From positions 1 to 56,774 of the forward strand of contig JAFTVU010000013.1 of assembly GCA_017465665.1 (NCBI GenBank): a stretch of DNA of 56,774 nt. The letters are read 5' to 3'. This DNA comes from Oscillospiraceae bacterium (GTDB lineage: Bacteria; Bacillota; Clostridia; Oscillospirales; Ruminococcaceae). The translations under genes and the position numbers were made by a program. Under the pieces are notes generated by a model, which worked only from the letters and a program-made list of their open reading frames with translations, was not told the DNA's origin and made no database searches. The stretch's first letter is position 1. Each line of letters begins with the position of its first letter. Below, piece after piece: positions 40,566 through 53,683 of the stretch.

Positions 40566-42366
40566 GATGTCAAAAAAGGAAATGCCCAGAACAAAGGGCG
40601 TTGTATGGAAAACGCTTAAATACTTCTTCCCTATCGCATGGAAGTTCGATAAGATGTACTTCATCCTGTCTGTAGTGAATGTGATAGTAGGCGCAGCTCT
40701 TCCGTTTGTGGATATCCTGCTGCTGCCGCTGCTGGTGGATTCGCTGATATCCCCCGAAAGAGATATCCCGATGATACTCACCTATGCAGCACTGATGGTT
40801 GGTCTTGATGTTATCGTGGGGCTTATAAACTCCCAGATAACCATCCATCTTGAAAAGTACGAGGACAAGTTCCTGAACTTCCAGGCTGAACAGATCGCTG
40901 ACCGCTGCATGAATATCGACTTTGCGCTCACCGAAAACAAGGAGTGTCTTGACCAGATAAACAAAGCACGCGAGGGCAAGGACTGGTCTGGCGGAATACA
41001 CGGTATTTCAAAGGCGTTCTTCACGATAATCCAGAATGTCATCAAGATATTCGGTGTGGTGACAGTGCTGGCTGTAAGCGCTCCGTGGCTTCTGCTGATA
41101 ATCGGCGCACTGCTGGCGGTGTCTACGCTTATCAACGCAAAGAAAAACAAGATAGAAGTAAAATACTTCAGCGATCTCGCAAATATCAACCGTGTGCTGT
41201 GGTATGTCACACATGAGATAGAGGATTTCCGCTTCGGCAAGGATGTCCGTCTTTATGGCGCTGCAGGCACGCTGATAAGCCGTACACAGCAGCAGATGGA
41301 CAGGCTCAACGCATTCTTCAAAAAGAAAGCCGACGAGCGTTATCCTCTGGATATTCTTGATGTCATCGTAGGCGCGCTGAGAGATTTCGGAACGTATCTC
41401 TACCTCGGCGCACTGGCGATACTCGGAAAGATAACCATCGGTACATACTCGCAGCTCACCACCTCTGGTGGAGTACTGAACAGCTCCCTGCAGGGTGCAA
41501 TATTCGGTCTGCAGGATATAGTAAAGCGCTGCAATTACGGCTATGAGATAGTGAAGCTGATGGAGTATCCTCCCATGCTGCAAAAGGGAAACAGAGAAGT
41601 TCCTGCCATTGACAGACCGCATGAGATAGAGTTCCGAAATGTTTCATTCTCCTATCCCAATACAAAGGTAAAGGTGCTGGAGAACGTCTCTATCACGATA
41701 AAAGCAGGCGAGCGCCTTTCCGTTGTAGGATTGAACGGCGCAGGCAAGACCACATTCATAAAGCTGCTGTGCCGCCTTTACGATACCGACGAGGGCGAAA
41801 TACTGATAGACGGCGTAAACATCCGAGAATATGACTATGATGAATACATGAAGCTGTTCTCCGTAGTATTTCAAGATTTCCGACTGCTCTCCTTTACAGC
41901 GCAGGACAATATCCTGCTCGGCAAGGAAGACAGCAACGAAACTGTCGATGAGCTTTTCGACAAGGTAGGTCTGCTGGATAAGATAAACTCGCTCCCAAAG
42001 GGCAGGGATACCATGATGTTCCGTCAGTTTGACAGGGACGGAGTTCAGCTTTCGGGAGGAGAACAGCAGAAGCTGGCTATCGCAAGAGCACTGTATAAAA
42101 ATGCGCCTGTGGTGATACTCGATGAGCCGACAGCGGCTCTTGACCCCGTTGCGGAATATGATATCTACTGCAAGTTCAACGAGCTTGTTGAAAACAAGAC
42201 TGCCGTTTACATCTCACACAGGCTGTCAAGCTGTAAATTCTGCGACCGTATAGCTGTTTTCAGCGGCGGCACGATAAAGGAGCTCGGCACGCATGACGAG
42301 CTTGTAAAGCTCAAGGACGGCGTTTATGCAGAGATGTTCAGTGCTCAAGCACAGTATTATGTTTAA
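40558..42366 (+). CDS. ABC exporter half-transporter, second subunit
   Basis: 602 residues with the same layout: membrane domain (helices around 35-55, 70-90, 150-185, 255-300), Walker A at 391-399, signature LSGGEQQKLAIARAL, and VVILDEPTAALD. Both subunits keep the signature and the Walker B glutamate region, so neither ATP site looks degenerate by eye. Overlaps the first subunit, and is followed by a structured repeat and then the BrxD-like gene on the same strand. Confidence 0.9.
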   Translation: MAEMSKKEMPRTKGVVWKTLKYFFPIAWKFDKMYFILSVVNVIVGAALPFVDILLLPLLVDSLISPERDIPMILTYAALMVGLDVIVGLINSQITIHLEKYEDKFLNFQAEQIADRCMNIDFALTENKECLDQINKAREGKDWSGGIHGISKAFFTIIQNVIKIFGVVTVLAVSAPWLLLIIGALLAVSTLINAKKNKIEVKYFSDLANINRVLWYVTHEIEDFRFGKDVRLYGAAGTLISRTQQQMDRLNAFFKKKADERYPLDILDVIVGALRDFGTYLYLGALAILGKITIGTYSQLTTSGGVLNSSLQGAIFGLQDIVKRCNYGYEIVKLMEYPPMLQKGNREVPAIDRPHEIEFRNVSFSYPNTKVKVLENVSITIKAGERLSVVGLNGAGKTTFIKLLCRLYDTDEGEILIDGVNIREYDYDEYMKLFSVVFQDFRLLSFTAQDNILLGKEDSNETVDELFDKVGLLDKINSLPKGRDTMMFRQFDRDGVQLSGGEQQKLAIARALYKNAPVVILDEPTAALDPVAEYDIYCKFNELVENKTAVYISHRLSSCKFCDRIAVFSGGTIKELGTHDELVKLKDGVYAEMFSAQAQYYV

Positions 42367-42368
42367 TG

Positions 42369-42455
42369 GCATACGGAGTGGTTTCGCGCAGCGAAATCCA
42401 ATTCCCTTAAGGGGAATTGGAAACAGAGTATGCAGGGTGACAGCAAAGCTGTCAC
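42369..42455 (+). repeat. Multi-hairpin repeat, copy A
   Basis: An outer stem gcatac (42369-42374) / gtatgc (42428-42433) encloses hairpin 1 (tttcgc-gca-gcgaaa, 42382-42396) and hairpin 2 (42398-42420, around ttaa). Hairpin 3 follows (gtgacagc-aaa-gctgtcac, 42437-42455). The same architecture recurs at 49421, 49611 and 49890 with compensated base changes. Confidence 0.85.
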
Positions 42456-42483
42456 TCCCTCAAGCGCAATATTATATATGACG

Positions 42484-42502
42484 GCATACGGCATGGTTTC
42501 GC
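42484..42502 (+). repeat. Truncated copy of the multi-hairpin repeat
   Basis: Begins gcatac and continues ggcatggtttcgc, the first arm and hairpin-1 half of copy A, then stops. It lies 115 bp downstream of copy A in the same orientation. Confidence 0.6.
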
Positions 42503-42539
42503 AAAGATAATAAAGCATAATTAAAAAAAGGAACGCGTG

Positions 42540-42618
42540 CGGAGCAATAATATAGTTGCTCCGTCGTGTATAAGAAAAGGATAAAACAGAATACAACATA
42601 CTTTCCTCAGCAGGAAAG
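42540..42618 (+). other. Two leader hairpins before the BrxD-like gene
   Basis: Hairpin cggagcaa / ttgctccg (42540-42563, 8-nt loop) and hairpin ctttcct-cagc-aggaaag (42601-42618). The second ends 23 bp before the start codon, close to the ribosome binding site AAAGGAGAG, and could affect translation. The 275-bp gap from 42367 contains only these and the repeats. Confidence 0.5.
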
Positions 42619-42641
42619 CTTTTCAGAGAAAGGAGAGAGCC

Positions 42642-44027
42642 ATGAAAGTACCAAAGCGGATAGCATCATCCGTAATAAATGCGCTCAAGGGCGGTGTTGT
42701 GCCGAGAACAGGTCTCGGATATATCGCAGTGGGCAGAACAGCAGAGATAAACGCACTGCTGCACGATGTTGATATCACCGAGCAGGGCGGTGCATTCTTC
42801 CGTTTCATAGTCGGACGCTACGGCAGCGGTAAGAGCTTCCTGTTGCAGACCATGCGCAGTCACGTCATGGACAGAGGCTTTGTCACCGCTGACGCTGACC
42901 TCTCCCCCGAGCGCCGTCTGATGGGGAGCAAGGGACAGGGTCTTGCTACCTACCGAGAGCTCATCCGAAACCTCTCGGTACGCACAAAGCCTGATGGCGG
43001 TGCGATATCACTCGTACTGGAGCGCTGGCTCACAGGCGTACGAAACGAAGTCATAGAAAGCGGCACAGCACCCTCGGACGAGCATTTCAACGAAGCCGTG
43101 GAGCGCCGCATCCATCTGAAGATAAACGATCTGCGTGATATGGTTCACGGCTTTGATTTCGCAAAGGCTCTGGACACATATCATAAGGCATACACTGATG
43201 GCGATGAGGAAAAGCAAGGCTGCGTCATCCGCTGGCTGAGAGGCGAATACGCCACCCGAACAGACGCAAAAAGAGATCTCGGTGTAGATACCATCATAAC
43301 CGATGACAACTGGTACGACTACATCAAGATACTTACCGCGTTCTTTGTCAGCGCCGGCTACAAGGGCTTTGTCATAATGATAGACGAGCTTGTAAACATC
43401 ATGAAGATACCTCATTCCGTTACCCGTCAGTACAATTACGAAAAGATACTGATGATGTATAACGATGTGCTTCAGGGCAAGGCTTCGCACCTTGGCATAA
43501 TCATGGGCGGAACTCCGCAGTGCATTGAGGATACAAGGCGTGGTGTATTCAGCTATGAGGCTCTGCGTTCACGTCTTGAAAGAGGCAGGTTCGCAACAGA
43601 CGAGACCCACGACCTGCTTGCGCCGATAATCAAGCTGCAGCCCCTCACCTATGAGGAGCTTACAGTGCTCACAGAAAAGCTTGCAGATATCCACGGACAG
43701 CTCTACGATTACACTCCGCGCATAACGCTTGACGACCGTATTGCGTTCATCAAGGCTGAATTCGGACGTGTGGGCGCGGAACAGAATATGACTCCACGTG
43801 AGATGATACGGGATTTCATAGAGCTGCTGAACATGGCTATGCAGAATCCGCAGAAGAGCATAATGGAGCTGATGGGCTGTGAAGAGCTCAGCAAGCCTGT
43901 TCTTTCTCCTCATGAAGCGATGGCGGCACTTCCGCATATCACCGCAAAGGACGGACTGGATTTCACCGAAGACCCCAACGAGGCTGGCATTACTCTGCCT
44001 GAGGGCTTTGAGGATTTCGAGCTTTGA
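42642..44027 (+). CDS. BrxD-like ATP-binding protein (DUF2791 type)
   Basis: 461 residues. P-loop GRYGSGKS at 58-65, Walker B-like VIMIDELVN near 245, then the family signature MGGTPQCIEDTRRGVFSYEALRSRLE near 285-310. This is the BREX ATP-binding/BrxD family (DUF2791), found in type 2 BREX (Pgl) systems with BrxHI helicase and also as isolated pairs. Start ATG follows AAAGGAGAG. The next gene, 61 bp later, is the helicase partner. PglX methyltransferase, PglZ, PglY and PglW are not in the window. Role inferred: ATPase of a defence or DNA-maintenance module. Confidence 0.8.
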   Translation: MKVPKRIASSVINALKGGVVPRTGLGYIAVGRTAEINALLHDVDITEQGGAFFRFIVGRYGSGKSFLLQTMRSHVMDRGFVTADADLSPERRLMGSKGQGLATYRELIRNLSVRTKPDGGAISLVLERWLTGVRNEVIESGTAPSDEHFNEAVERRIHLKINDLRDMVHGFDFAKALDTYHKAYTDGDEEKQGCVIRWLRGEYATRTDAKRDLGVDTIITDDNWYDYIKILTAFFVSAGYKGFVIMIDELVNIMKIPHSVTRQYNYEKILMMYNDVLQGKASHLGIIMGGTPQCIEDTRRGVFSYEALRSRLERGRFATDETHDLLAPIIKLQPLTYEELTVLTEKLADIHGQLYDYTPRITLDDRIAFIKAEFGRVGAEQNMTPREMIRDFIELLNMAMQNPQKSIMELMGCEELSKPVLSPHEAMAALPHITAKDGLDFTEDPNEAGITLPEGFEDFEL

Positions 44028-44042
44028 TAATTGACAACGGGC

Positions 44043-44067
44043 GGATTGACGGCTTAGCCGTCAATCC
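44043..44067 (+). other. Hairpin between the BrxD-like and helicase genes
   Basis: A perfect 11-bp stem (ggattgacggc / gccgtcaatcc) with loop tta, followed by tgctattttt. It could be a partial terminator that adjusts the ratio of the two products. Confidence 0.55.
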
Positions 44068-44088
44068 TGCTATTTTTACGAGGTAAAA

Positions 44089-46284
44089 ATGAGTACATTC
44101 TATCGTTATGCGCCATTTATTCAGGAATACATCTACCGCAACAAATGGGAAGAGCTGCGTGAGATACAGATACGCGCCGCTGAAGCCATCTTCGATACAG
44201 ACGAAAACCTGCTGCTGTGTTCAGGTACTGCAAGCGGTAAGACAGAAGCCGCATTCCTGCCTGTGCTTACTCAGCTGTGGGAAAATCCCTCAGCAAGCGT
44301 GGGCGTACTGTATCTTTCGCCGCTGAAAGCACTCATCAATGACCAGTTTGAACGACTTGAGGGACTTCTTGAGGAAGCCGACATCCCCGTCACAAAATGG
44401 CATGGCGACGCTTCACAGGCAGCTAAAAAGCGTGTACTGAAAAGACCGCAGGGCGTTATCCAGACTACTCCCGAATCACTGGAGAGTATGCTGATGCGTA
44501 ACTCCGGCGGCGCACACAGGCTGTTTTCCGATCTGCGCTACGTCATCATAGACGAGGTACACTATTTCATGGATAACGACCGCGGAGTGCAATTAAGCTG
44601 CCTGCTGGAACGTCTTGCACGCCTTATAGGCTACCATCCGCGCAGGATAGGACTTTCCGCCACACTGGGCGACCCGACCAACGCAGAGCTCTGGCTCACC
44701 CGCGGCACAGGCAGGAGCTGCATCACTCCCTCCACCAAAGAAAAAGGCCGCAGCATACGGCTTTCGGTGAAGTTCTTTCCCATAAAGCAGAAGATACCCA
44801 ACTCTGACAGCAAGGTACTGCTTGAAAATTACTATTCATATCTTTACGAGAGCACCGCAGGCAGGCGCTGCATACTCTTCTCCAACAGCAAGGGCGAGGT
44901 AGAGGAAAACATCGCGCATATGAAACGTCTCAGCGAGCTGCGCCACGGCAACGATTGCTACCTTGTCCATCATGCGAACATCTCACCTGCCCTGCGTGAA
45001 TTCACCGAGCAGCGCATGAAATCGGGCGAGCTGCCTGTATGCACAGGCGCTACTGTGACCCTGGAGCTCGGCATCGACCTCGGACACCTGGAACGCATCG
45101 TCCAGACGGGCTGTCCGCTGACGGTATCGGGACTTGTCCAGAGGCTTGGCAGAACAGGCCGCAGAGGCGGCACAGCGGAGATGCGCTTCGCATTCCGCCA
45201 TGATATGAGCCTGCCGCCGCAGGAGTTCTACAAAGAGGTCAACTGGGATTTCGTTGCCTGCACTGCGATGATACTGCTCTACACCCGTGAACGCTGGATA
45301 GAGCCTATGTATATCCCGAAACTGCCATACAGCCTGCTGTACCACCAGACGATGAGCTATCTTGCGTCCTGCGGCAGCGTCCAGCCAAAGCAGCTTGCAG
45401 CATATATCCTTACCCTTGAAGCATTCAGAAATGTATCCCAGGAGGACTACCTCACACTGCTGCGGTATCTGCTTAAAAATGGCCAGATAGAGCGCGGTGA
45501 GGACGGCGGTCTGATGGTCGGTGAACGAGGAGAGGCGGCTGTGAACAATTACGAATTTCTCGCAGTATTCTCTGTCCCCGACGAATACTCCGTGCGCTGC
45601 AACGGCGAGGAGATAGGTACGGTACAGTCGCCATTTCCCGAGGGCGCACAGTTTGCTCTTGCAGGACAGGCATGGGAGGTAACGGAGCTGGATAAGCAGG
45701 AACGGCGCATCTTTGTCAAAAAAGTGCCCGGTATCTCTGCGAATATGTGGCAGGATACAGGCAATGAATATGTCCACACAAAGGTAATGAAGATGATACG
45801 GGATGTACTGCGCTCGGATGAGCAGTACGCATTCCTTGACGAGATGGCACAGAGCCGCCTTAACGATATCCGCAAAGCCTGCCGCACAGCAGGTCTTGAG
45901 GGCAGGGGCAGCGTTGTGCCGCTCACTCCCACAAGCTATGCAGTGTTCGAATTTCTCGGCACACGGGCAACTGCAGCACTGTGCTACGCACTGCGACAGC
46001 AGGGCTTTGATGCAACTGTATATCTCAGCAGATACTTCCCTGTATGCATCGAAGTACGCACTTTGAGAGGCATCGATGAGCTGTGCGAGGCTCTTTCGTT
46101 CATACGCACCCAGGGCGCAGATAAATATTCTTTCTCCATCCCCGACAACTGCGAGATATGCGGCAAATACAATGACTATATCCCCAGAGAGCTTCTGAAA
46201 AAGCAATATATCGAGGATTATCTTGACATAGAGGATATGATGCGCAACATGGAGATAAACAGCGATACACTGCTGAACGAATAA
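44089..46284 (+). CDS. BrxHI/Lhr-like DEAD/DEAH helicase
   Basis: 731 residues. SF2 motifs: Walker A CSGTASGKTEAA (about 44-55), QTTPESLESML, motif II DEVH at 155-158, motif III SATLG, and motif VI QRLGRTGRRGG from residue 351. The arrangement with a unique C-terminal half fits Lhr-like helicases, including BrxHI of type 2 BREX, and not RecQ or RecG. A CxxC...  pair (NCEICGK near 695) could bind a metal. Downstream of the BrxD-like ATPase on the same strand; the two ends match a two-gene operon ended by a terminator. Confidence 0.82.
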   Translation: MSTFYRYAPFIQEYIYRNKWEELREIQIRAAEAIFDTDENLLLCSGTASGKTEAAFLPVLTQLWENPSASVGVLYLSPLKALINDQFERLEGLLEEADIPVTKWHGDASQAAKKRVLKRPQGVIQTTPESLESMLMRNSGGAHRLFSDLRYVIIDEVHYFMDNDRGVQLSCLLERLARLIGYHPRRIGLSATLGDPTNAELWLTRGTGRSCITPSTKEKGRSIRLSVKFFPIKQKIPNSDSKVLLENYYSYLYESTAGRRCILFSNSKGEVEENIAHMKRLSELRHGNDCYLVHHANISPALREFTEQRMKSGELPVCTGATVTLELGIDLGHLERIVQTGCPLTVSGLVQRLGRTGRRGGTAEMRFAFRHDMSLPPQEFYKEVNWDFVACTAMILLYTRERWIEPMYIPKLPYSLLYHQTMSYLASCGSVQPKQLAAYILTLEAFRNVSQEDYLTLLRYLLKNGQIERGEDGGLMVGERGEAAVNNYEFLAVFSVPDEYSVRCNGEEIGTVQSPFPEGAQFALAGQAWEVTELDKQERRIFVKKVPGISANMWQDTGNEYVHTKVMKMIRDVLRSDEQYAFLDEMAQSRLNDIRKACRTAGLEGRGSVVPLTPTSYAVFEFLGTRATAALCYALRQQGFDATVYLSRYFPVCIEVRTLRGIDELCEALSFIRTQGADKYSFSIPDNCEICGKYNDYIPRELLKKQYIEDYLDIEDMMRNMEINSDTLLNE

Positions 46285-46290
46285 CATAAA

Positions 46291-46313
46291 AAAGCCCCCG
46301 TAACGGGGGCTTT
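46291..46313. terminator. Bidirectional terminator between helicase and rlmH
   Basis: 10-bp perfect stem aaagcccccg / cgggggcttt with loop taa. A-run to the left and T-run to the right fit the convergent gene ends. Confidence 0.9.
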
Positions 46314-46318
46314 AAAAT

Positions 46319-46798
46319 TTACTTATGATACTTTGAATTATTCAGTATCGAAAATGCACGGTATACCTGTTCCATCAGCATTACCCTTGCAAGACTGTGC
46401 GGAAACGTCATTGGTGACATCGAGATACGCAGATCAGCGGATCTCTTCAGCCCCTCGTCCAGTCCATGTGAGCTGCCCACAAGGAAGTTCACTGTACTGA
46501 AGCCGCGGTTGCCGATATCGCTCAGCTTTTCAGCAAGCTGCTCGCTGGAGATAGTCTTGCCCTCAATGCACATGGCAACCGTGAACGAAGCGGGTCTGAT
46601 ATGCTCACGGATACGCTCGGCCTCCTGTGCAAGCGCCTTATCTATCTGCGCCTGATTGGGGTTCTGCGGGAGATCAACGGGATTCGGCTCTATCACCTTT
46701 GGTGTTACAAATGCGCCCATACGCTTCATGTACTCTGCGCACGCTTCCCTGTACCAGCTCTCCTTTAGCTTTCCCATCGCTATGAAATTAACGTTCAT
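46319..46798 (-). CDS. rlmH: 23S rRNA pseudouridine-1915 N3-methyltransferase
   Basis: 159 residues, full length for RlmH (SPOUT/trefoil-knot methyltransferase). Conserved parts are MNVNFIAMGKLKE, LCIEGK followed by S-E-Q-L-A, and the knot NFLVGSSHGLDEG...FPHSLARVMLMEQVYRAF. Modifies helix 69 of 23S rRNA after RluD-type pseudouridylation. 1 bp after the D,D-carboxypeptidase gene. Confidence 0.95.
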   Translation of the reverse strand: MNVNFIAMGKLKESWYREACAEYMKRMGAFVTPKVIEPNPVDLPQNPNQAQIDKALAQEAERIREHIRPASFTVAMCIEGKTISSEQLAEKLSDIGNRGFSTVNFLVGSSHGLDEGLKRSADLRISMSPMTFPHSLARVMLMEQVYRAFSILNNSKYHK

Positions 46799-46799
46799 G

Positions 46800-48305
46800 T
46801 TATCTCCTGAATACGTTATTCTTCTTTTTCTTCTGGGGCGCCATGCTTATCTTGCGGCGCTTGTTCAGCTCAGAAACACGTCTTTCGTGGCTCTTTCTGA
46901 TGGCTCTTGTGAAGATGAACAGGATAATGAGAAGCACCAGCGCACCAACCAGCAGCTTGAACTGAGTGGTGGAGATGATGTTCATTATCTTTTCCTTGTA
47001 GTACTCTGTCATATCCAGCTCAATGCGCTGTTCCGTGATGAGCGGAATGTTCGCCAGCACCTCGCCGTTCAGCTTCAGACGGAGGTTTGCAACAGCCATA
47101 TCCTTTTCAACGGGAGCTTCCAGCATCACCTCTGCCATATCTGTCTTGCCGTTGCCATTGGCGTCCTCACCTGTGATAACAGGCTCCAATATACGCTGGA
47201 TAGTGGAGCGGTCAAGGGACTTCGGAAGCAGAGTGTAATATTCCTCTGTTACGATTATTCCTACGGTATCAGCATCTTTCCCTTTATCCACCGCAACCTG
47301 AGTTATCTGCTCGTTCTTTTCAAGCACCTTGGTGTACTCAAATTCAGCAAACGCCCAGTCATACAGATTGATGTGATCTGTCACAGAAAGCTGGGTATCT
47401 GTAGGAGAGCCGTCCTCATTGCAGTATGGTGCGCCCATAGATACCACTATGTAGTGGAAGCCGTCCTTTTCTGCGGTGGTTACAAGGCAGCGCGTGCCGT
47501 ACTCAAACACAGAGGTATCATACAGACCGTTCTCCTGCACGAAATAGTATTTATCTATACTACCTGTCTTTACGCCGTGAACACCCTCGTAATAGTAATC
47601 GCTTGTGGGCTTCATCATAGCATTCGTATGGGTTATGTAATAACCATCGGGATTATATTCGTTTGCAGGCATCTCATAAGAATATGTATCGCATATCTCC
47701 ATGAAGAGGGGATAATTATCGATAGCATACTTCGTGATAAGGTACATATCGTAGGCTGTGGTGTAGTTATTGGGATCGAACAGGCCGTGAGCATTGGTGA
47801 AGTTTGTGTTCTTACAGCCTATCTCCTTAGCCTTATCATTCATCATCTGGACGAAATTCGGTATGCTTTCGCCACCGAGGTTATACGCAAGGATGTTTGC
47901 CGCCTCACAGCCTGAGGGAAGCATGAGTCCGTACAGCAGATGCATGTATGTGATGTTCGTCTGGCGCGGCTCTATCGCTGCATTGGACGGGCCCCAGAAA
48001 TTGGGGTTATCCTCGTTGAACTCATTAAAAGCAGTGTAAGGCACAAGAACATAAGAGCTGAAATCCTTGATCTCCTCCAGAGCAACCAGACAGGTCATGA
48101 TCTTTGTCAGCGATGCAGGATACATCTTCTCTTCCGCGTTCTTGGATACCACAACGATATCAGTATCTGTATTTACCATGTAGACTGCTTCACTGTTCAG
48201 CGCAAATTTCGGCGTAAAAGCCGCAGAAGCGTGCAGAGAAGCCGCAAAAGTCGTCCATAGTAAAATTATCGACATAAATAATGCAAATTTTTTAGCTTTT
48301 CGCAT
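46800..48305 (-). CDS. D-alanyl-D-alanine carboxypeptidase (peptidase S11)
   Basis: 501 residues. A signal peptide (residues 1-28) precedes the S11 domain: SxxK as S65-L-T-K68 and KTG at 246-248. The middle motif, normally SxN, reads S131-G-C133. A C-terminal membrane helix at about 454-472 and a basic tail (RRKISMAPQKKKKN) anchor it inside-out, as in clostridial DacF-like proteins. It trims peptidoglycan pentapeptides at the cell surface. Confidence 0.88.
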   Translation of the reverse strand: MRKAKKFALFMSIILLWTTFAASLHASAAFTPKFALNSEAVYMVNTDTDIVVVSKNAEEKMYPASLTKIMTCLVALEEIKDFSSYVLVPYTAFNEFNEDNPNFWGPSNAAIEPRQTNITYMHLLYGLMLPSGCEAANILAYNLGGESIPNFVQMMNDKAKEIGCKNTNFTNAHGLFDPNNYTTAYDMYLITKYAIDNYPLFMEICDTYSYEMPANEYNPDGYYITHTNAMMKPTSDYYYEGVHGVKTGSIDKYYFVQENGLYDTSVFEYGTRCLVTTAEKDGFHYIVVSMGAPYCNEDGSPTDTQLSVTDHINLYDWAFAEFEYTKVLEKNEQITQVAVDKGKDADTVGIIVTEEYYTLLPKSLDRSTIQRILEPVITGEDANGNGKTDMAEVMLEAPVEKDMAVANLRLKLNGEVLANIPLITEQRIELDMTEYYKEKIMNIISTTQFKLLVGALVLLIILFIFTRAIRKSHERRVSELNKRRKISMAPQKKKKNNVFRR

Positions 48306-48366
48306 ATAGACAAATCCCCCTTAATGCGGTATTATATATATTAGGTGTTTTTATCCCCATGTAACT

Positions 48367-48396
48367 ATTATATCAAATTACATGGACGATTGTAAA
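48367..48396 (-). promoter_or_regulatory. Promoter of the D,D-carboxypeptidase gene
   Basis: On the minus strand TTTACA (48396-48391), 18-bp spacer, TATAAT (48372-48367). It gives a leader of about 55 nt. Confidence 0.6.
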
Positions 48397-48458
48397 GACC
48401 TTTTGCGAAATTGTAACCAATTTGTTAATTATTGCAGGAAAACAAAGGAATTTCACTT

Positions 48459-49169
48459 ATGATCTACATAACAGGAGATATCCACGGCGATCTCTCGCGT
48501 TTTAAAGACCCTATGCTGAAAAAGCTCAAGAAGCAGGATGCGCTCATAATATGCGGCGATTTCGGCTTTATCTGGGACGGAAGCCCGAACGAAAAGAAGC
48601 TGCTAAAAAAGATCGGCAGGATGCGCTGCAATGTGCTGTTCGTTGAGGGCTCGCATGAGAATTACGATCTGCTGGAGCAATACGAGACCGAGGAATGGTG
48701 CGGCGGAAAGACCCGACACATCAGCGGCAGATTAAGACAGCTGATGCGCGGTCAGGTGTATGAGATCGCAGAAAAGACGGTATTTGCATTCGGCGGCGGC
48801 CAGAGTGATGAGAGCATGGAGCTCATCGAGGGTCAGAACTGGTGGCAGCGTGAAATGCCCTCCGAGGAGGAGCTTTCCGAGGGTGTGAAAAATCTCGAAA
48901 AGGCAGGCAACAAGGTGGATCTTGTAGTCACCTATGAGCCGCCCGCAAAGCTGCACGACTTCATCAACGGCAGTACGGACGCTATCGTGAACAGCGTCAA
49001 TACATATCTGAACGACGTGTACGAAAATACCGAGTTCAGCAAATGGTTCTTCGGCAAGCTTCATCTCAACAAGCTGATACCTCCGAAGTACCATGCGGTG
49101 TATGATAAGATCGTCATCGCAGACTCTACAAAGATCAAAAAGAAAAAAGCAAAGAAAGAGGTAAAATAA
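48459..49169 (+). CDS. Metallophosphoesterase-fold protein with altered metal ligands
   Basis: 236 residues from ATG 48459 (AAAGGAA upstream). Motif I is intact (GDIHGD, Asp7/His9) and so is motif II (CGDFG, Asp34). Motif III reads GSHEN (65-66) for the usual GNHEN, motif IV reads VTYEPP (Tyr159 for His), and the last motif reads GKLH (Lys200, His202) for GHxH. These three changes are at positions that bind metal or phosphate in calcineurin-like phosphoesterases, so activity is doubtful or altered. The stop precedes the next gene by one base. Confidence 0.85.
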   Translation: MIYITGDIHGDLSRFKDPMLKKLKKQDALIICGDFGFIWDGSPNEKKLLKKIGRMRCNVLFVEGSHENYDLLEQYETEEWCGGKTRHISGRLRQLMRGQVYEIAEKTVFAFGGGQSDESMELIEGQNWWQREMPSEEELSEGVKNLEKAGNKVDLVVTYEPPAKLHDFINGSTDAIVNSVNTYLNDVYENTEFSKWFFGKLHLNKLIPPKYHAVYDKIVIADSTKIKKKKAKKEVK

Positions 49170-49170
49170 C

Positions 49171-49407
49171 ATGGCAGAACTGAAATTTGAGATCACAAAG
49201 GAGCTCGGCGTTATCTCTGAGAACGCAAAGGGCTGGACAAAGGAACTGAACATGGTAAGCTGGAACGACAATGACCCCAAGTTCGATATCCGTGAATGGT
49301 CTCCCGATCACACCCGCATGAGCAAGGGCATTACACTGACAGAGGAAGAGATGCAGCAGCTCGTTGAGCTGTTCAACGCCCGCGACGAAGAGGACAGCTT
49401 TGAGTAA
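49171..49407 (+). CDS. PC4/YdbC-like ssDNA-binding protein
   Basis: 78 residues. Pattern LKFEITKELGVIS...GWTKELNMVSWND...KFDIREWSPDHTRMSKGITLTEEE matches the bacterial YdbC family, small homologues of the transcription coactivator PC4 that bind single-stranded DNA as dimers. Translated by coupling to the metallophosphoesterase gene (1-bp gap). Its last 29 codons, from 49321, are repeated twice downstream. Confidence 0.85.
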   Translation: MAELKFEITKELGVISENAKGWTKELNMVSWNDNDPKFDIREWSPDHTRMSKGITLTEEEMQQLVELFNARDEEDSFE

Positions 49408-49420
49408 TGCCCGCAGCGAA

Positions 49421-49507
49421 GCAGACGTAATGGTTTCGCGAAGCGAAATCGATTTTTCTTAAAGGAAAATCGAAATGAAGTCTGCGCCTGTGTAAGCGAA
49501 GCGTCAC
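49421..49507 (+). repeat. Multi-hairpin repeat, copy B
   Basis: Outer stem gcagac (49421-49426) / gtctgc (49480-49485), hairpin 1 tttcgc-gaa-gcgaaa (49434-49448), hairpin 2 at 49450-49472 (all paired, with a T-A pair where copy C has C-G), and a decayed hairpin 3 (49490-49507). Confidence 0.85.
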
Positions 49508-49510
49508 CGG

Positions 49511-49597
49511 AGCAAGGGCATTACGCTGACAGAGGAAGAAATGCAGCAGCTCGTTGAACTGTTCAACGCCCGCGACGAAGAAGACAGCTTTGAGTAA
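49511..49597 (+). pseudogene. Second copy of the ydbC-like 3' end
   Basis: 29 in-frame codons ending in TAA, with no start codon or ribosome binding site of its own. It differs from the gene at 4 positions, all third-codon and synonymous (ACA to ACG, three GAG to GAA). Confidence 0.85.
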
Positions 49598-49610
49598 TGC
49601 CCGCAGCGAA

Positions 49611-49697
49611 GCAGACGTAATGGTTTCGCGAAGCGAAATCGATTTTCCTTAAGGGAAAATCGAAATGAAGTCTGCACCTGTGTAAGCGAAGCGTCAC
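49611..49697 (+). repeat. Multi-hairpin repeat, copy C
   Basis: 190 bp after copy B. Same outer stem (49611-49616 / 49670-49675) and hairpin 1; hairpin 2 (49640-49662) is perfect, with C-G where copy B has T-A. The linker to hairpin 3 differs by one base. Confidence 0.85.
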
Positions 49698-49700
49698 CGG

Positions 49701-49787
49701 AGCAAGGGCATTACACTGACAGAGGAAGAGATGCAGCAGCTCGTTGAGCTGTTCAATGCCCGTGACGAAGAGGACAGCTTTGAGTAA
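49701..49787 (+). pseudogene. Third copy of the ydbC-like 3' end
   Basis: 29 codons and TAA, no start. Differs from the gene at two positions, both synonymous (AAC to AAT, CGC to CGT). It is followed by the terminator that presumably belonged to the original gene, so it may be the ancestral 3' end. Confidence 0.85.
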
Positions 49788-49803
49788 TACATAACATACA
49801 CGC

Positions 49804-49834
49804 AAAAAGACACGGTCAGTCCGTGTCTTTTTTT
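49804..49834 (+). terminator. Terminator after the tandem array
   Basis: 12-bp stem aaaaagacacgg / ccgtgtcttttt with 5-nt loop and a T-run. The remaining sequence to 49889 has no ORF. Confidence 0.9.
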
Positions 49835-49889
49835 GTTTTTACGGCGTAGCTTTGCAATCTCCGCCACCAATCCCTTAACCGCGCCCATG

Positions 49890-49976
49890 GCAAACGGAGC
49901 GGTTTTGCGAAGCAAAATGAGTTTTCCTTAAGGGAAAACTCAAGTGTAGTTTGCAGGGTGACCGCTTTGCGGTCAC
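49890..49976 (+). repeat. Multi-hairpin repeat, copy D, in the asnB leader
   Basis: Outer stem gcaaac (49890-49895) / gtttgc (49949-49954), hairpin 1 ttttgc-gaa-gcaaaa (49903-49917), hairpin 2 at 49919-49941 and hairpin 3 gtgaccgc-ttt-gcggtcac (49958-49976). TATAAT at 49982-49987 follows directly, and GTGACC at 49958 is 18 bp before it, so the repeat may provide a -35 box. Confidence 0.85.
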
Positions 49977-50020
49977 TCGCATATAATGTCTCAGACCTAC
50001 TATGAAAGGAGTTGCATTAT

Positions 50021-51615: not shown

Positions 51616-52185
51616 ATGAAAGTAGCTTATGTAAGAGTAAGTACAGTTGAGCAGAACGAGGCTAGACAGGTGGAGGCACTGAAAGTCTATGGTATCGAGA
51701 AATGGTTTATCGAGAAAACCAGTGGCAAGGACACCAACAGAGCCGAGTTCCAGAGTATGATGAATTACGTCCGAGAGGGCGATACAGTGTACATACTGGA
51801 TTTCTCCCGATTGACAAGGAGCGTTAGCGACCTGCTCCACACCATTGAGGAACTTGACCGCAAGGGTGTGAAACTGGTATCACTGAAAGAAAATCTTGAT
51901 ACAAATACCAATACTGGCAGGTTGATATTAACGATTATAGGTGCGATAAATGAATTTGAAAGACAGAATATCCTTGAAAGACAGCGTGAGGGTATCGCCC
52001 TTGCCAAGGCAAAGGGAGTTTATAAAGGCAGACAGCCGAACAAATATGACGATGATTTATTGAGAGAAGTCCTTATCGGCATCGAGAGCAAAACAATGTC
52101 CGTGTCAGAGGCTTCACGAAGATTGGGTGTTACTCGTGCAACAGTGTATAATCTTTTGAAAAGAAACGGTACATCATCTTATTAA
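51616..52185 (+). CDS. Serine recombinase (resolvase/invertase type)
   Basis: 189 residues. Resolvase N-terminal catalytic domain with Ser9 in YVRVST, then the conserved EKTSGKD and DFSRLTRS blocks, and a C-terminal helix-turn-helix from about 145 (MSVSEASRRLGVTRATVYNLL). This is the small Tn3-resolvase/DNA invertase class, not the large integrase class. AGGAGG precedes the start. It could resolve or invert DNA, or mobilise the island; targets are not identifiable here. Confidence 0.93.
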   Translation: MKVAYVRVSTVEQNEARQVEALKVYGIEKWFIEKTSGKDTNRAEFQSMMNYVREGDTVYILDFSRLTRSVSDLLHTIEELDRKGVKLVSLKENLDTNTNTGRLILTIIGAINEFERQNILERQREGIALAKAKGVYKGRQPNKYDDDLLREVLIGIESKTMSVSEASRRLGVTRATVYNLLKRNGTSSY

Positions 52186-52262
52186 ATTTAATAATCGTGT
52201 CCGTATACATTCTTGTTATATAGGTTTTGTAATTGAAAAATTACGAAAAACTTATGAAAGGA

Positions 52263-52281
52263 TACCGACATATAGTCGGTA
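52263..52281 (+). other. Hairpin in the leader of the first HNH-like gene
   Basis: Stem taccgac / gtcggta with loop atata, 14 bp before the ATG at 52295 and directly after GAAAGGA; it could sequester the ribosome binding site. Confidence 0.45.
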
Positions 52282-52294
52282 ACGGTGATTTGCT

Positions 52295-52972
52295 ATGCAG
52301 ATACTAACAACAGCAAAGCTACACAGGCTTCTCCCCACAGGACAGATGACACGATTGGTGAGCTTCAAGGAGTTCAAGAAGTACCACCAAGAATATCCCA
52401 TGACAAACTGCCCCACTTTTGAAAGGGTCATTGCAGAGATAGATGATGTCGATGTAACAAAGTCTATGGTGAGCATCTACTTTGATGATGGTTCGTCTAT
52501 GAATATCTTCTATGACGGATATTATGAGAGGTACAACAGGTCAGGCAAATGCCAGAGTACAGGCGGCACAGGTACTATGAGAGGTATCAACTGGAAAAAT
52601 CATCATCTGCAGATAAGGATCTACGGCAAAGCAATTCTTCTGGAAAGACTGGTTGCGGTCTGCTGTGATATCTTCAATGATACAATGCCGCTGTCATATA
52701 ACGGTCTGGTGGCAAATGTCATGGACGGTACAGGGTCGCTGAAAACAGCAGAGTGGTTTAACTGTCCCCTGAATATCGAGCCTGATAACATCGAATGGTG
52801 TTCGTTCAGCGGTAATTCATCACACGGATGGTTAAGCAAGCGGTTATATAAAATAACCCATCATGTTTACAGATTTAGTGCTGAGGATGCTAAATTGGCT
52901 GATGTCATGAGAAACGGCAACAAGCAGATGATAACCGATTATTGCAACAGCAGTCTGTACAGAGTAGATTAA
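52295..52972 (+). CDS. HNH-related protein with altered active site (paralogue 1)
   Basis: 225 residues. It parallels NUMOD4-HNH homing endonucleases in outline: GYYERYNRSGKC (75-86) for the sheet with Tyr-x-Ile-x-x-x-Gly, then the second domain with LLERLVAVCCDI (116-127), ANVMDGTGS (140-148) and NIEWCS (165-170). In true HNH enzymes these read HRLVA, NHxDGN and NLEWCT; here both histidines are replaced (Glu for the first, Val for the second). So it looks like an HNH fold that has lost or changed the cleavage site. It is 52 bp upstream of its paralogue. Confidence 0.55.
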   Translation: MQILTTAKLHRLLPTGQMTRLVSFKEFKKYHQEYPMTNCPTFERVIAEIDDVDVTKSMVSIYFDDGSSMNIFYDGYYERYNRSGKCQSTGGTGTMRGINWKNHHLQIRIYGKAILLERLVAVCCDIFNDTMPLSYNGLVANVMDGTGSLKTAEWFNCPLNIEPDNIEWCSFSGNSSHGWLSKRLYKITHHVYRFSAEDAKLADVMRNGNKQMITDYCNSSLYRVD

Positions 52973-53023
52973 GTGTAATCGGTGTGGTGGGTGGGTATTT
53001 AAGAAACAGAAAGGAAGATTATC

Positions 53024-53683
53024 ATGAGAAAGCTTACAGCCAGAGAGTTTAACAGCTGTCTGTGTCCTGAGGCAAGAACACAGATAGTAGATTTCAAGAC
53101 CTTTAAGAAATGGCACACACGAACAAAGTCGGCAAGTATAGAGTGCTTTTTCTCGCAAATAGAAAGAGTGACCCAGTGCAAAGACCACATTACAGCAAGG
53201 TTTACAAGCGGAACGGTCATAAAGGCTTATTTCGGCGGCTACTATGAGAGGATAGACCCGAACGGAAAAATTATAGTCAAGGGTGATTCCAAATCCAAAT
53301 GTATCGACAGCAATCATATCCGCATATTTGTTAAGGGCGGCAGTGTTCCGTTGGAGTTGTTTATAGCTGTATGCTCGGATATCATGAGGAATGAAATGCC
53401 GCTGTCATATAAGGGTTGGACGGCAAATGTTATGGATGGCTCGGGTTCTGTGGATAACGCAAAGCAACTGGGAATATGTCCTAATTTTCACCCTGATAAT
53501 ATCGAGTGGTGCTTGTACGCTGACGGCAATACTCATGAGGGAATGGCAAGGCTCATATTTCATCTGACAAAAAGAGTTTACAGGTTCAGTGCAAATGACA
53601 GAAAGCTTCGGGAAGTTGCACAGACAGCCAGTCCAGAGGTTTTGAGAAGATTTTGTGATGAGAGATTGGATGTTGTAAAATGA
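53024..53683 (+). CDS. HNH-related protein with altered active site (paralogue 2)
   Basis: 219 residues, homologous to the previous gene over most of its length. Shared blocks are FKxFKKxH (24-31), GYYER, MPLSYxGxxANVMDGxGS (125-142), PDNIEWC (157-163) and VYRFSAxDxKL. The second HNH-type segment again lacks the histidine. The N-terminus is clearly different, and there is no signal peptide. Tandem duplication inside the island is likely. Unknown function; a DNA-binding or inhibitory role is possible. Confidence 0.55.
   Translation: MRKLTAREFNSCLCPEARTQIVDFKTFKKWHTRTKSASIECFFSQIERVTQCKDHITARFTSGTVIKAYFGGYYERIDPNGKIIVKGDSKSKCIDSNHIRIFVKGGSVPLELFIAVCSDIMRNEMPLSYKGWTANVMDGSGSVDNAKQLGICPNFHPDNIEWCLYADGNTHEGMARLIFHLTKRVYRFSANDRKLREVAQTASPEVLRRFCDERLDVVK

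Follow-up and report, generated by a model that had tools for sequence, protein, structure and literature searches.

The window (the whole stretch of 56,774 nucleotides analyzed here) carries four copies of a folded repeat, all on the forward strand. Copy A (42369-42455), which lies behind an ABC transporter gene, has a core at 42369-42433 that is defined by its sequence and fold and is matched by our covariance model at 42367-42437 (85.5 bits); in it an outer stem (42369-42374 paired with 42428-42433) surrounds hairpin 1 (42380-42397, loop GCA) and hairpin 2 (42398-42420), and a third hairpin, GTGACAGC AAA GCTGTCAC, follows at 42437-42455. A 44-nt direct repeat, D1 (42344-42387; 82% identity, spacing 115), is made up of the final 23 nt of the ABC gene (42344-42366) and the start of the element; its second copy (42459-42502) again contains the 3' end of the gene and then a truncated element start, so that a truncated fifth copy begins near 42483. 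Farther downstream, a PC4-family gene (49171-49407, stop codon at 49405-49407; Pfam PF02229, E-value 7.2e-13) is followed by copy B (49421-49485; model match 49419-49489, 83.3 bits) and its tandem duplicate, copy C (49611-49675; 49609-49679, 88.6 bits). Tandem Repeats Finder assigns both to an array at 49320-49788 in which gene 3' end, B, gene 3' end, C, and gene 3' end succeed one another; with the unit starts checked, B and C are a single 190-bp unit present in 2.5 copies with 95% matches, and this unit also takes in the last 88 nt of the PC4 gene, repeated between the copies. A terminator-like hairpin behind the PC4 gene (49804-49832; inverted repeat I5, compared by eye with relatives) precedes copy D (49890-49976), with its core at 49890-49954 (model match 49888-49958, 83.8 bits), outer stem at 49890-49895/49949-49954, hairpin 1 at 49901-49918 with loop GAA, and hairpin 3, GTGACCGC TTT GCGGTCAC, at 49958-49976.

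The first-pass annotation described these as four copies of one architecture whose stem bases change in pairs. The outer stems GCATAC/GTATGC, GCAGAC/GTCTGC, and GCAAAC/GTTTGC, the C-G or T-A pairs of hairpin 1, and a hairpin 2 of 9 bp can all be seen in the window sequences as it stated. The common architecture is complete in A and D only: B and C are without hairpin 3 and GCAGGGTGAC, both of which had been listed as features of the copies, and at that place B reads GCCTGTGTAAGCGAAGCGTCACC and C is almost identical. Fold energy falls far below that of shuffled sequences for A (z -5.88) and D (z -5.85), and less so for B (z -2.30) and C (z -2.81), while GGTTTYGCRNAGCRAAAT has four occurrences in the window (0.06 expected), a number reached in 0/100 shuffles. 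B and C are not independent and count as one, which leaves three independent elements in the window; taken by themselves, the four sequences would therefore be weak evidence for covariation. The observation made in the window, a repeat with covarying stems, is thus real and partly confirmed, with the corrections given here.

We define family E by its 71-nt core, the outer stem with two hairpins on which the covariance model was built; the unit is an ~71-nt three-way junction, and the third hairpin follows in part of the copies. The seed set comprised 19 of 28 pattern matches. Five were left out for incomplete architecture (L013, L017, L022, L023, and L027), an omission that raises the paired percentage in the 19-seed test; the others were L011, which is cut by IS-like ORFs, the near-duplicates L007 and L019, and L021, the other strand of L020. 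Over 102 distinct copies, 22 of the 24 pairs are altered on both sides, paired positions amount to 96.4% (69.5% in shuffled controls), and the covariation score is 0.627, compared with 0.158 for shuffled and at most 0.104 for slid alignments; the 19 seeds likewise score far above both controls. Scanning the genome and its relatives with the model, as the first-pass annotation had proposed, was strongly positive, and its claim of a new family holds: there are many genomic copies, their covariation is far above controls and beyond that of simple palindromes, and Rfam has no family at threshold in the window or, the tRNAs themselves apart, in seven element loci. Selection on the structure, in DNA or in RNA, is supported by this family-wide covariation.

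In the genome of the window, a draft with 8.8% contamination, the model finds 30 matches at an E-value of ≤0.01, distributed over about 21 distinct places; three of the matches, at 20.5-24.5 bits, are weak or partial. Within the genus, E occurs in 29 of the 37 genomes searched (28/36 besides the window's own); across the order, at an E-value of ≤1e-5, it occurs in 5/13 listed genomes of the same family and 3/183 others. One of these order-level carriers, G102, has 12 copies, and G042 from the same genus as G102 has none. Two further families of the order also have multi-copy relatives of E; the 11 copies read there have an outer stem around two hairpins and, in nine, the triloop C(GNA)G or C(AAA)G. 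We found no description of family E among the open-access papers listed for Ruminococcus and Clostridia repeats, structured-RNA surveys, REPIN, attC, group IIC introns, or mini-hairpins.

E is strongly enriched behind tRNA genes. With three partial or wrong-strand matches dropped, 30 of 72 fetched loci have E just past the 3' end of a tRNA gene, on the opposite strand in all 30, and over all tRNA-linked loci the sense strand of E is opposite to the tRNA in 30/33. In the window's genome, eight of the 36 tRNA genes are followed by E at a distance of up to 150 nt, again always on the opposite strand, where drawing 20 places genome-wide would give 0.04. Copies are also seen close to the 3' ends of protein-coding genes. 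At 15 loci, a gene lying at most 150 nt upstream reads into E in sense, and five CDS and one tRNA gene point away. The earlier placement in 3' flanks or leaders on the plus strand needs revision, since the usual position is past a gene 3' end and often on the opposite strand, and the tie to the sense strand of the neighbors does not hold outside the window. The family is palindromic, multi-copy, and extragenic: most of the 30 matches fall between ORFs in a simple ORF list, and some overlap listed ORFs of 96-371 codons, which may not be genes. At tRNA-Arg(CCT), a three-armed structure is present in most genomes read and could represent vertical retention of a function. No recurrent neighbor gene was seen by eye, and the four neighbors that were scanned are a large serine recombinase (L042), a DNA methylase subunit, a DUF58 protein, and a MatE protein.

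Integron attC sites lie at gene 3' ends, and their core sites, RYYYAAC...GTTRRRY, form the outer stem. The position of E at gene ends, its folded strand opposite the adjacent tRNA gene, and the array unit of gene end plus E in the window would suit a related site, at which a tyrosine recombinase recombines the folded strand opposite the gene and the gene end with E forms a cassette-like unit. We regard this as very improbable, because the core motif is not kept (RYYYAAC in 0/19 seeds, GTTRRRY in 1/19) and because attC is one hairpin with extrahelical bases, whereas E is a three-way junction. What the two may share is recognition of one folded strand, which the sections of PMC3053210 available to us describe for attC and which for E is a proposal.

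Hairpin 1 ends in C(GNA)G in 74/87 triloops (N is A in 54, C in 10, G in 6, and T in 4), a count that is partly by construction because the seed pattern demanded R-N-A in the loop, with two mismatches allowed; excerpts of PMC9828363 and PMC4686876 attribute exceptional stability to GNA loops in DNA mini-hairpins. Further, mispairs on the sense strand are G·T in 60 cases and A·C in 10 (p 8e-10; representatives of 65 clusters, with the conserved G·T pair 18-54 excluded), and in the seeds they are G·T in 19 and A·C in 2. Hairpin 3, used as a control, is without bias (G·T 9, A·C 5), although hairpin 3 and E do not differ significantly (Fisher p 0.12). We infer that it is the sense strand whose ability to fold is maintained. 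Tolerance of G·T is also expected from RNA folding, and this counts against a DNA-level reading.

The same one-sided intermediates, of G-U type when read as RNA, would fit an RNA element, either part of a 3' UTR between convergent genes (serving mRNA 3'-end protection or, with hairpin 3, bidirectional termination) or a small RNA, encoded by some of the copies, that runs into a shared terminator. Consistent with this are the 15 loci read in sense from upstream and the symmetric T-run terminator that follows E at many of the tRNA genes listed; in addition, G-T pairs in REPs have been taken as a hint of RNA function (PMC3733652, in the portions available). By eye, this terminator beside E is a GC hairpin with a T-run, a form that is found neither in A and D nor in the core of E itself. 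Individual copies have good -35/-10 boxes upstream (e.g., L075 and L065), and some tRNA-linked units among those listed are preceded by the motif CTAACCTTTACAAAAAAGATTTT, in some cases with a TATAAT-like box. Across the set, however, a dedicated sigma-70 promoter is unsupported: in the 79 of 107 regions scored, upstream promoter scores on the sense strand do not exceed those of the opposite strand (p 0.83) and are borderline against shuffles (p 0.05). The orientation opposite to tRNA genes and the DNA-type triloop in most copies of hairpin 1 also speak against an RNA element, as does Rfam, which at its gathering threshold yields nothing in the window and only tRNA in seven element loci, and gives nothing below an E-value of 0.36 for 49350-50010. 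We consider an RNA element a real but rather unlikely explanation.

The sites of E in the window are empty in most relatives examined. In the 21 relatives whose flank could be read, the PC4 gene has no E behind it, and in five relatives the ABC gene has none, among them G028, which keeps the ABC-BrxC order with an intergenic gap of 69 nt vs. 275 nt in the window. This absence is incomplete: the ABC gene is followed by E in SIG524 as well, and the D site of G022 gives a weak opposite-strand match (23.8 bits) that reads like a terminator hairpin. Between A and the SIG524 copy, 4/24 pairs differ at both bases and no pair differs at just one, and 9/23 unpaired positions are changed. Because A is closer to copies of its own genome (0.87) than to the SIG524 copy (0.76), conversion or re-insertion is as likely as vertical inheritance of A. 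The search for flanking repeats at 51 solitary loci revealed no clean target-site duplication and no defined ends for E: seven loci exceed the 99th percentile set by 1500 mismatched pairs, but only L115 is verified as a gene end, and those at L079, L095, and L118 appear to be repeats of neighboring hairpins. Copy A scores 14, above the 95th percentile (13) and below the 99th (20).

Tandem arrays that include their flanks, direct repeats around E, the exclusively two-sided changes at the ABC site, and a hairpin 3 without strand bias are what one might see if E were a passive satellite, that is, hairpin-prone DNA duplicating by replication slippage, with stems perfected through quasi-palindrome correction (template switching) and without selection. 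Correction should presumably treat G·T and A·C alike, contrary to the excess of G·T in E; moreover, the G and A of the loop are kept while N varies, and the spread to about 21 places with a preference for tRNA genes counts against passive duplication. A satellite of this kind thus appears improbable, and selection rather than template-switch correction is the likely source of the covariation.

Y1 transposases (PF01797) occur in 8/37 genomes and are absent from several copy-rich ones, and only one of 11 Y1 loci has E, in G028, 139 nt past the 3' end of a gene very similar to the IS200-like gene in G006 (a comparison that leaves out L173) and, by eye, to the Y1 gene of the window's genome. The latter gene, which we take to be IS200-like, is in two pieces and has no E at its locus. 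We therefore reject a Y1/RAYT mobilizer. On contig C54, ORFs presumably of IS3 type start behind an E that is without its 3' outer arm, an arrangement that is probably an IS inserted in E. No mobilizer for E was identified among the Y1 transposases of 37 genomes, the 11 Y1 loci, and the four scanned neighbor genes.

Other structured, multi-copy intergenic repeats of ~100 bp, such as BOX, ERIC, RUP, and Correia, are each confined to some genera and are like E in general character (compared by description); none is known to combine a three-way junction and a GNA mini-hairpin with a position beside tRNA genes. The closer likeness is to REPIN/REP sequences, which, in the parts of PMC3116915 and PMC3733652 consulted, are short, palindromic, interspersed, extragenic, and non-autonomous, have alternative stem residues that remain complementary, along with G-T pairs and short loops, form arrays in tandem with flanking sequence, and fold into hairpins or "clover" shapes. 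REPs are defined there by a GTAG or CGTC tetranucleotide at one hairpin end (PMC3733652, as far as available), a tag not kept in E: GTAG is present in 3/19 seeds at three different positions, the complement of CGTC in B and C only, and neither in 14/19 seeds. E also has two different hairpins within an outer stem, whereas a REPIN is two inverted copies of one; Y1 genes are too sparse and too seldom flanked by E for a REP/RAYT partnership; the preference for tRNA 3' ends belongs to E; and the REP survey, in the part available, names other phyla (PMC3733652).

Our leading, still tentative reading is that E is a REPIN-like non-autonomous interspersed repeat that spreads as DNA and is recognized as one folded strand. 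An enzyme acting on single-stranded DNA would read the sense strand by its shape and mini-hairpin, perhaps in the manner of REPIN/REP or attC sites, and would move or duplicate the unit at hairpins at gene ends; once in place, the hairpins would promote local tandem duplication, and selection for recognition would preserve stem pairing as the sequence drifts. A more speculative version, which we think unlikely as a whole, would see in E a new class of clostridial mobile element: a GNA-capped three-way junction that is moved as single-stranded DNA by an enzyme other than a Y1 transposase, homes to hairpins behind tRNA and protein genes, and is able to insert together with a copy of a gene 3' end that leaves the gene whole.

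Structured interspersed repeats are best known in Proteobacteria, where a relative of transposases is thought to move them. New here are the one-strand G·T preference, the C(GNA)G triloop, the placement at tRNA 3' ends, sites that are mostly empty in relatives, and arrays that include gene ends. Family E adds a case from gut clostridia with unusually clear covariation, one-sided mispairs, a DNA-type mini-hairpin, and a preference for tRNA ends, for which no matching transposase was found. It cautions that many copies and strong covariation do not by themselves imply a non-coding RNA, and it makes two matters testable: the factor that reads the folded strand, and whether selection on a covarying element acts at the level of DNA or RNA.

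The first-pass annotation had read four plus-strand copies (A to D) in the window as a repeat family with covarying stems. In this repeat, here called E, a core of about 71 nt forms an outer stem around hairpins 1 and 2, with hairpin 3 downstream and outside the core. The window is contig C38 of a draft genome of 2.87 Mb and 155 contigs (completeness 97.9%, contamination 8.8%); in the window, GGTTTYGCRNAGCRAAAT occurs four times against 0.06 expected. Copies A (42369-42455) and D (49890-49976) have the outer stem and all three hairpins; in copies B (49421-49485) and C (49611-49675) only the outer stem and hairpins 1 and 2 are present. B and C are parts of a single tandem array (49320-49788; period 190, 95% matches), in which E alternates with the 3'-terminal 88 nt of a gene of the PC4 family (49171-49407): three such gene ends enclose first B and then C, and a terminator-like hairpin follows the last of them; the window therefore holds three independent elements. 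Behind A, a 44-nt stretch made of the last 23 nt of an ABC gene and the start of E is repeated at 82% identity. The neighboring region 42642-46284 encodes a BrxC/BrxD-type ATPase (PF10923, E-value 7.9e-163) and then a DEAD-box helicase whose match to the Lhr winged helix is weak; the two may form a pair that serves in defence or repair. In genome G028 and in the relative SIG524, too, this ATPase gene lies downstream of the ABC transporter. At 51616-53683, a serine resolvase gene (PF00239) is followed by ORFs 52295-52972 (no Pfam match) and 53024-53683, which look alike by eye.

The structure of E is conserved while its bases change. A motif search allowing up to two mismatches gave 28 matches, 19 of which were aligned with MAFFT as seeds of a covariance model, R1; five of the nine left out were without the full architecture. 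Among the seeds, 95.4% of cells pair in the named structure, itself drawn from the MAFFT alignment being scored, against 76.7% when shuffled and at most 50.7% when slid; 16 of 24 pairs show two-sided change, and the covariation score is 0.548 against 0.188 when shuffled. Among 138 matches, 102 of them distinct, at loci fetched from the compared genomes and from 14 named stretches labeled as Oscillospiraceae, Ruminiclostridium and Bacillota MAGs, these values were 96.4% against 69.5% paired, two-sided variation in 22/24 pairs, and a score of 0.627 against 0.158, in an alignment fitted to R1 and hence biased towards the model structure.

The family is widely spread. R1 has 30 matches in its own genome at E-values ≤0.01 (the weakest three at 20.5-24.5 bits) and matches 33 of 61 genomes searched: 29/37 within the genus, own genome counted, and 4/24 outside it (best E-values 1.5e-4 to 0.004). 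Order-wide, at ≤1e-5, nine of 197 genomes have matches: the own genome, five of the 13 same-family genomes listed and three of 183 in the rest of the order. Genome G102 carries 12 copies and G042, of the same genus, none. Of the 19 copies in G102 and G123, 11 were read; all have the outer stem around two hairpins, and nine have a C(GNA)G or C(AAA)G triloop. No Rfam family was matched at threshold in the window or, tRNA apart, in seven element loci, and E was not found in open-access literature on Clostridia repeats, structured-RNA surveys, REPINs, attC sites, group IIC introns or mini-hairpins; one survey of structured RNAs from human microbiomes refers to palindromic candidates in general terms (PMC8040213).

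Mispairs are biased towards one strand. On the sense strand, on which E is read, representatives of 65 clusters have 1293 Watson-Crick cells, 60 G·T, 10 A·C and 43 other (G·T versus A·C, p 8e-10, pair 18-54 left out); the 19 seeds have 19 G·T and two A·C. A G·T mispair reads as A·C on the complementary strand, so the excess suggests that it is the sense strand whose folding is maintained. The downstream hairpin, outside the model, has nine G·T and five A·C in 55 distinct hairpins (p 0.42), and is a weak control since E and this hairpin do not differ significantly (Fisher p 0.12). G-U pairs are tolerated in RNA too; the DNA reading turns on transcription, as judged from promoter scores and from the sense strand being opposite to the tRNA beside tRNA genes. 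Across 79 upstream regions, promoter signal on the sense strand was not above that on the opposite strand (p 0.83), and stood at p 0.05 against shuffles. Hairpin 1 has C(GNA)G in 74 of the 87 copies having a triloop (otherwise AAA in eight, AGA in two, TCA in one, and GNA with a different closing pair in two), and 15 of 102 distinct copies have no triloop on a 5-bp stem. DNA mini-hairpins with a GNA loop and two or more G-C pairs have been called extraordinarily stable (PMC4686876), and GAA the most stable triloop known in DNA (PMC9828363); the seed pattern demanded R-N-A in the loop, so the GNA excess is supportive, not deciding.

E is absent from most related sites. Behind the PC4 gene, no E was seen in the 21 relatives whose flank could be read (by eye in 230 nt, and with R1), and behind the ABC gene none in five; G028 has the two genes in the same ABC-BrxC order, 69 nt apart against 275 in the window. 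Upstream of asparagine synthase, sequences from six relatives (one mostly N) had no clear E. Across 35 relatives' loci for the window sites, the only R1 match was L128 of genome G022 (23.8 bits), which sits at the D site in the opposite orientation and is by eye a terminator-type hairpin. SIG524 (L115) has E directly behind the orthologous ABC gene, with flanks 80% and 77% identical, and 34 bp of the gene end recur past E; compared with the window copy, four of 24 core pairs changed two-sided and none one-sided, and nine of 23 unpaired positions changed. Flanking direct repeats exceeded the 99th percentile of 1500 mismatched pairs at seven of 51 solitary loci (drawn from 103 distinct loci), reaching 77 columns; that at L115 is the gene end, and those at L079, L095 and L118 seem to be repeats of hairpin units. 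Several relatives carry arrays of three to six units with periods of ~113-173 bp. A four-element composite array (L030, G000:C76:17120-17561) has changed outer stems, an alternative hairpin 3 and shared spacers. By eye, a second hairpin module adjoins E in relatives' L068, L069, L072, L081, L084 and L085, with an outer GCAAAG/CTTTGC-type stem, a long inner stem and a GNA loop on the E-sense strand.

E favors gene ends. Among 72 distinct loci, comprising best matches and chosen stretches rather than a random sample, 33 carry a tRNA gene 3' of E at a distance of up to 150 nt: in 30 the tRNA lies on the opposite strand with its 3' end towards E, and in three E lies 24 nt upstream of tRNA-Lys. At none of the 72 is there a tRNA gene within 150 nt 5' of E whose 3' end points to it. 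Protein genes, called with a simple ORF caller, lie 3' of E at 13 loci, nine with their 3' end towards it; of those 5' of E, 15 have the 3' end towards it and five away, and one tRNA gene there also points away. In its own genome E lies within 150 nt behind eight of 36 tRNA genes, always on the opposite strand, against 0.04 expected when 20 places are drawn anywhere in the genome, a figure that an intergenic-only draw would raise. The 33-47 nt gap there contains a hairpin, in many cases a T-run terminator; several relatives have a longer gap with two hairpins, and in some the unit begins directly behind the encoded CCA of two tRNA-Pro, tRNA-Gly and tRNA-Leu genes. tRNA-Arg(CCT) was matched in 11 of 37 genomes and its 3' flank read in 10: R1 matches G000, G017 and G008, and more weakly G003; G004, G012, G015, G022 and G030 have three-armed variants by eye; and G028 has neither. 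The block CTAACCTTTACAAAAAAGATTTT, with variants, lies ~45 nt before E in L062-L066, L091, L092, L034 and L035, and behind hairpin 3 in some copies away from tRNA; it may delimit the unit on its outer side, or mark a promoter. By eye, fragments resembling the 3' part of a tRNA lie in the 3' flanks of L034, L063 and L064, next to E and its hairpin, where ARAGORN called no full tRNA gene. Single copies also lie near transposase, recombinase or IS-type genes: L172 (G028:C23, 1216-1286) lies 139 nt downstream of an IS200-like Y1 transposase gene, on the opposite strand; at L042 (G000:C53), a large serine recombinase gene (PF07508, 1-1305) lies 195 nt upstream; and IS3-type ORFs (by eye) directly follow a copy without its 3' outer arm (L029, G000:C54:6123-7441).

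REPINs likewise have tandem arrays with flanking sequence and a 'clover' fold (PMC3116915), and REPs show complementary stem alternatives and G-T pairs, which those authors read as a hint of RNA function (PMC3733652). Unlike REPs and REPINs, E is without a conserved GTAG/CGTC tag, and no RAYT/Y1 gene correlates with it: Y1 genes occur in eight of 37 genomes, and E adjoins one of 11 Y1 loci. E can therefore be said to work like a REPIN, not to be one. Its structure, mispair bias, spread, arrays, gene-end preference and absence from most related sites are observed, while the enzyme and the single-stranded intermediate are postulated. Tentatively, and at slightly less than even odds, we regard E as a REPIN-like non-autonomous element recognized as folded single-stranded DNA, on which an enzyme would act through a single-stranded intermediate.
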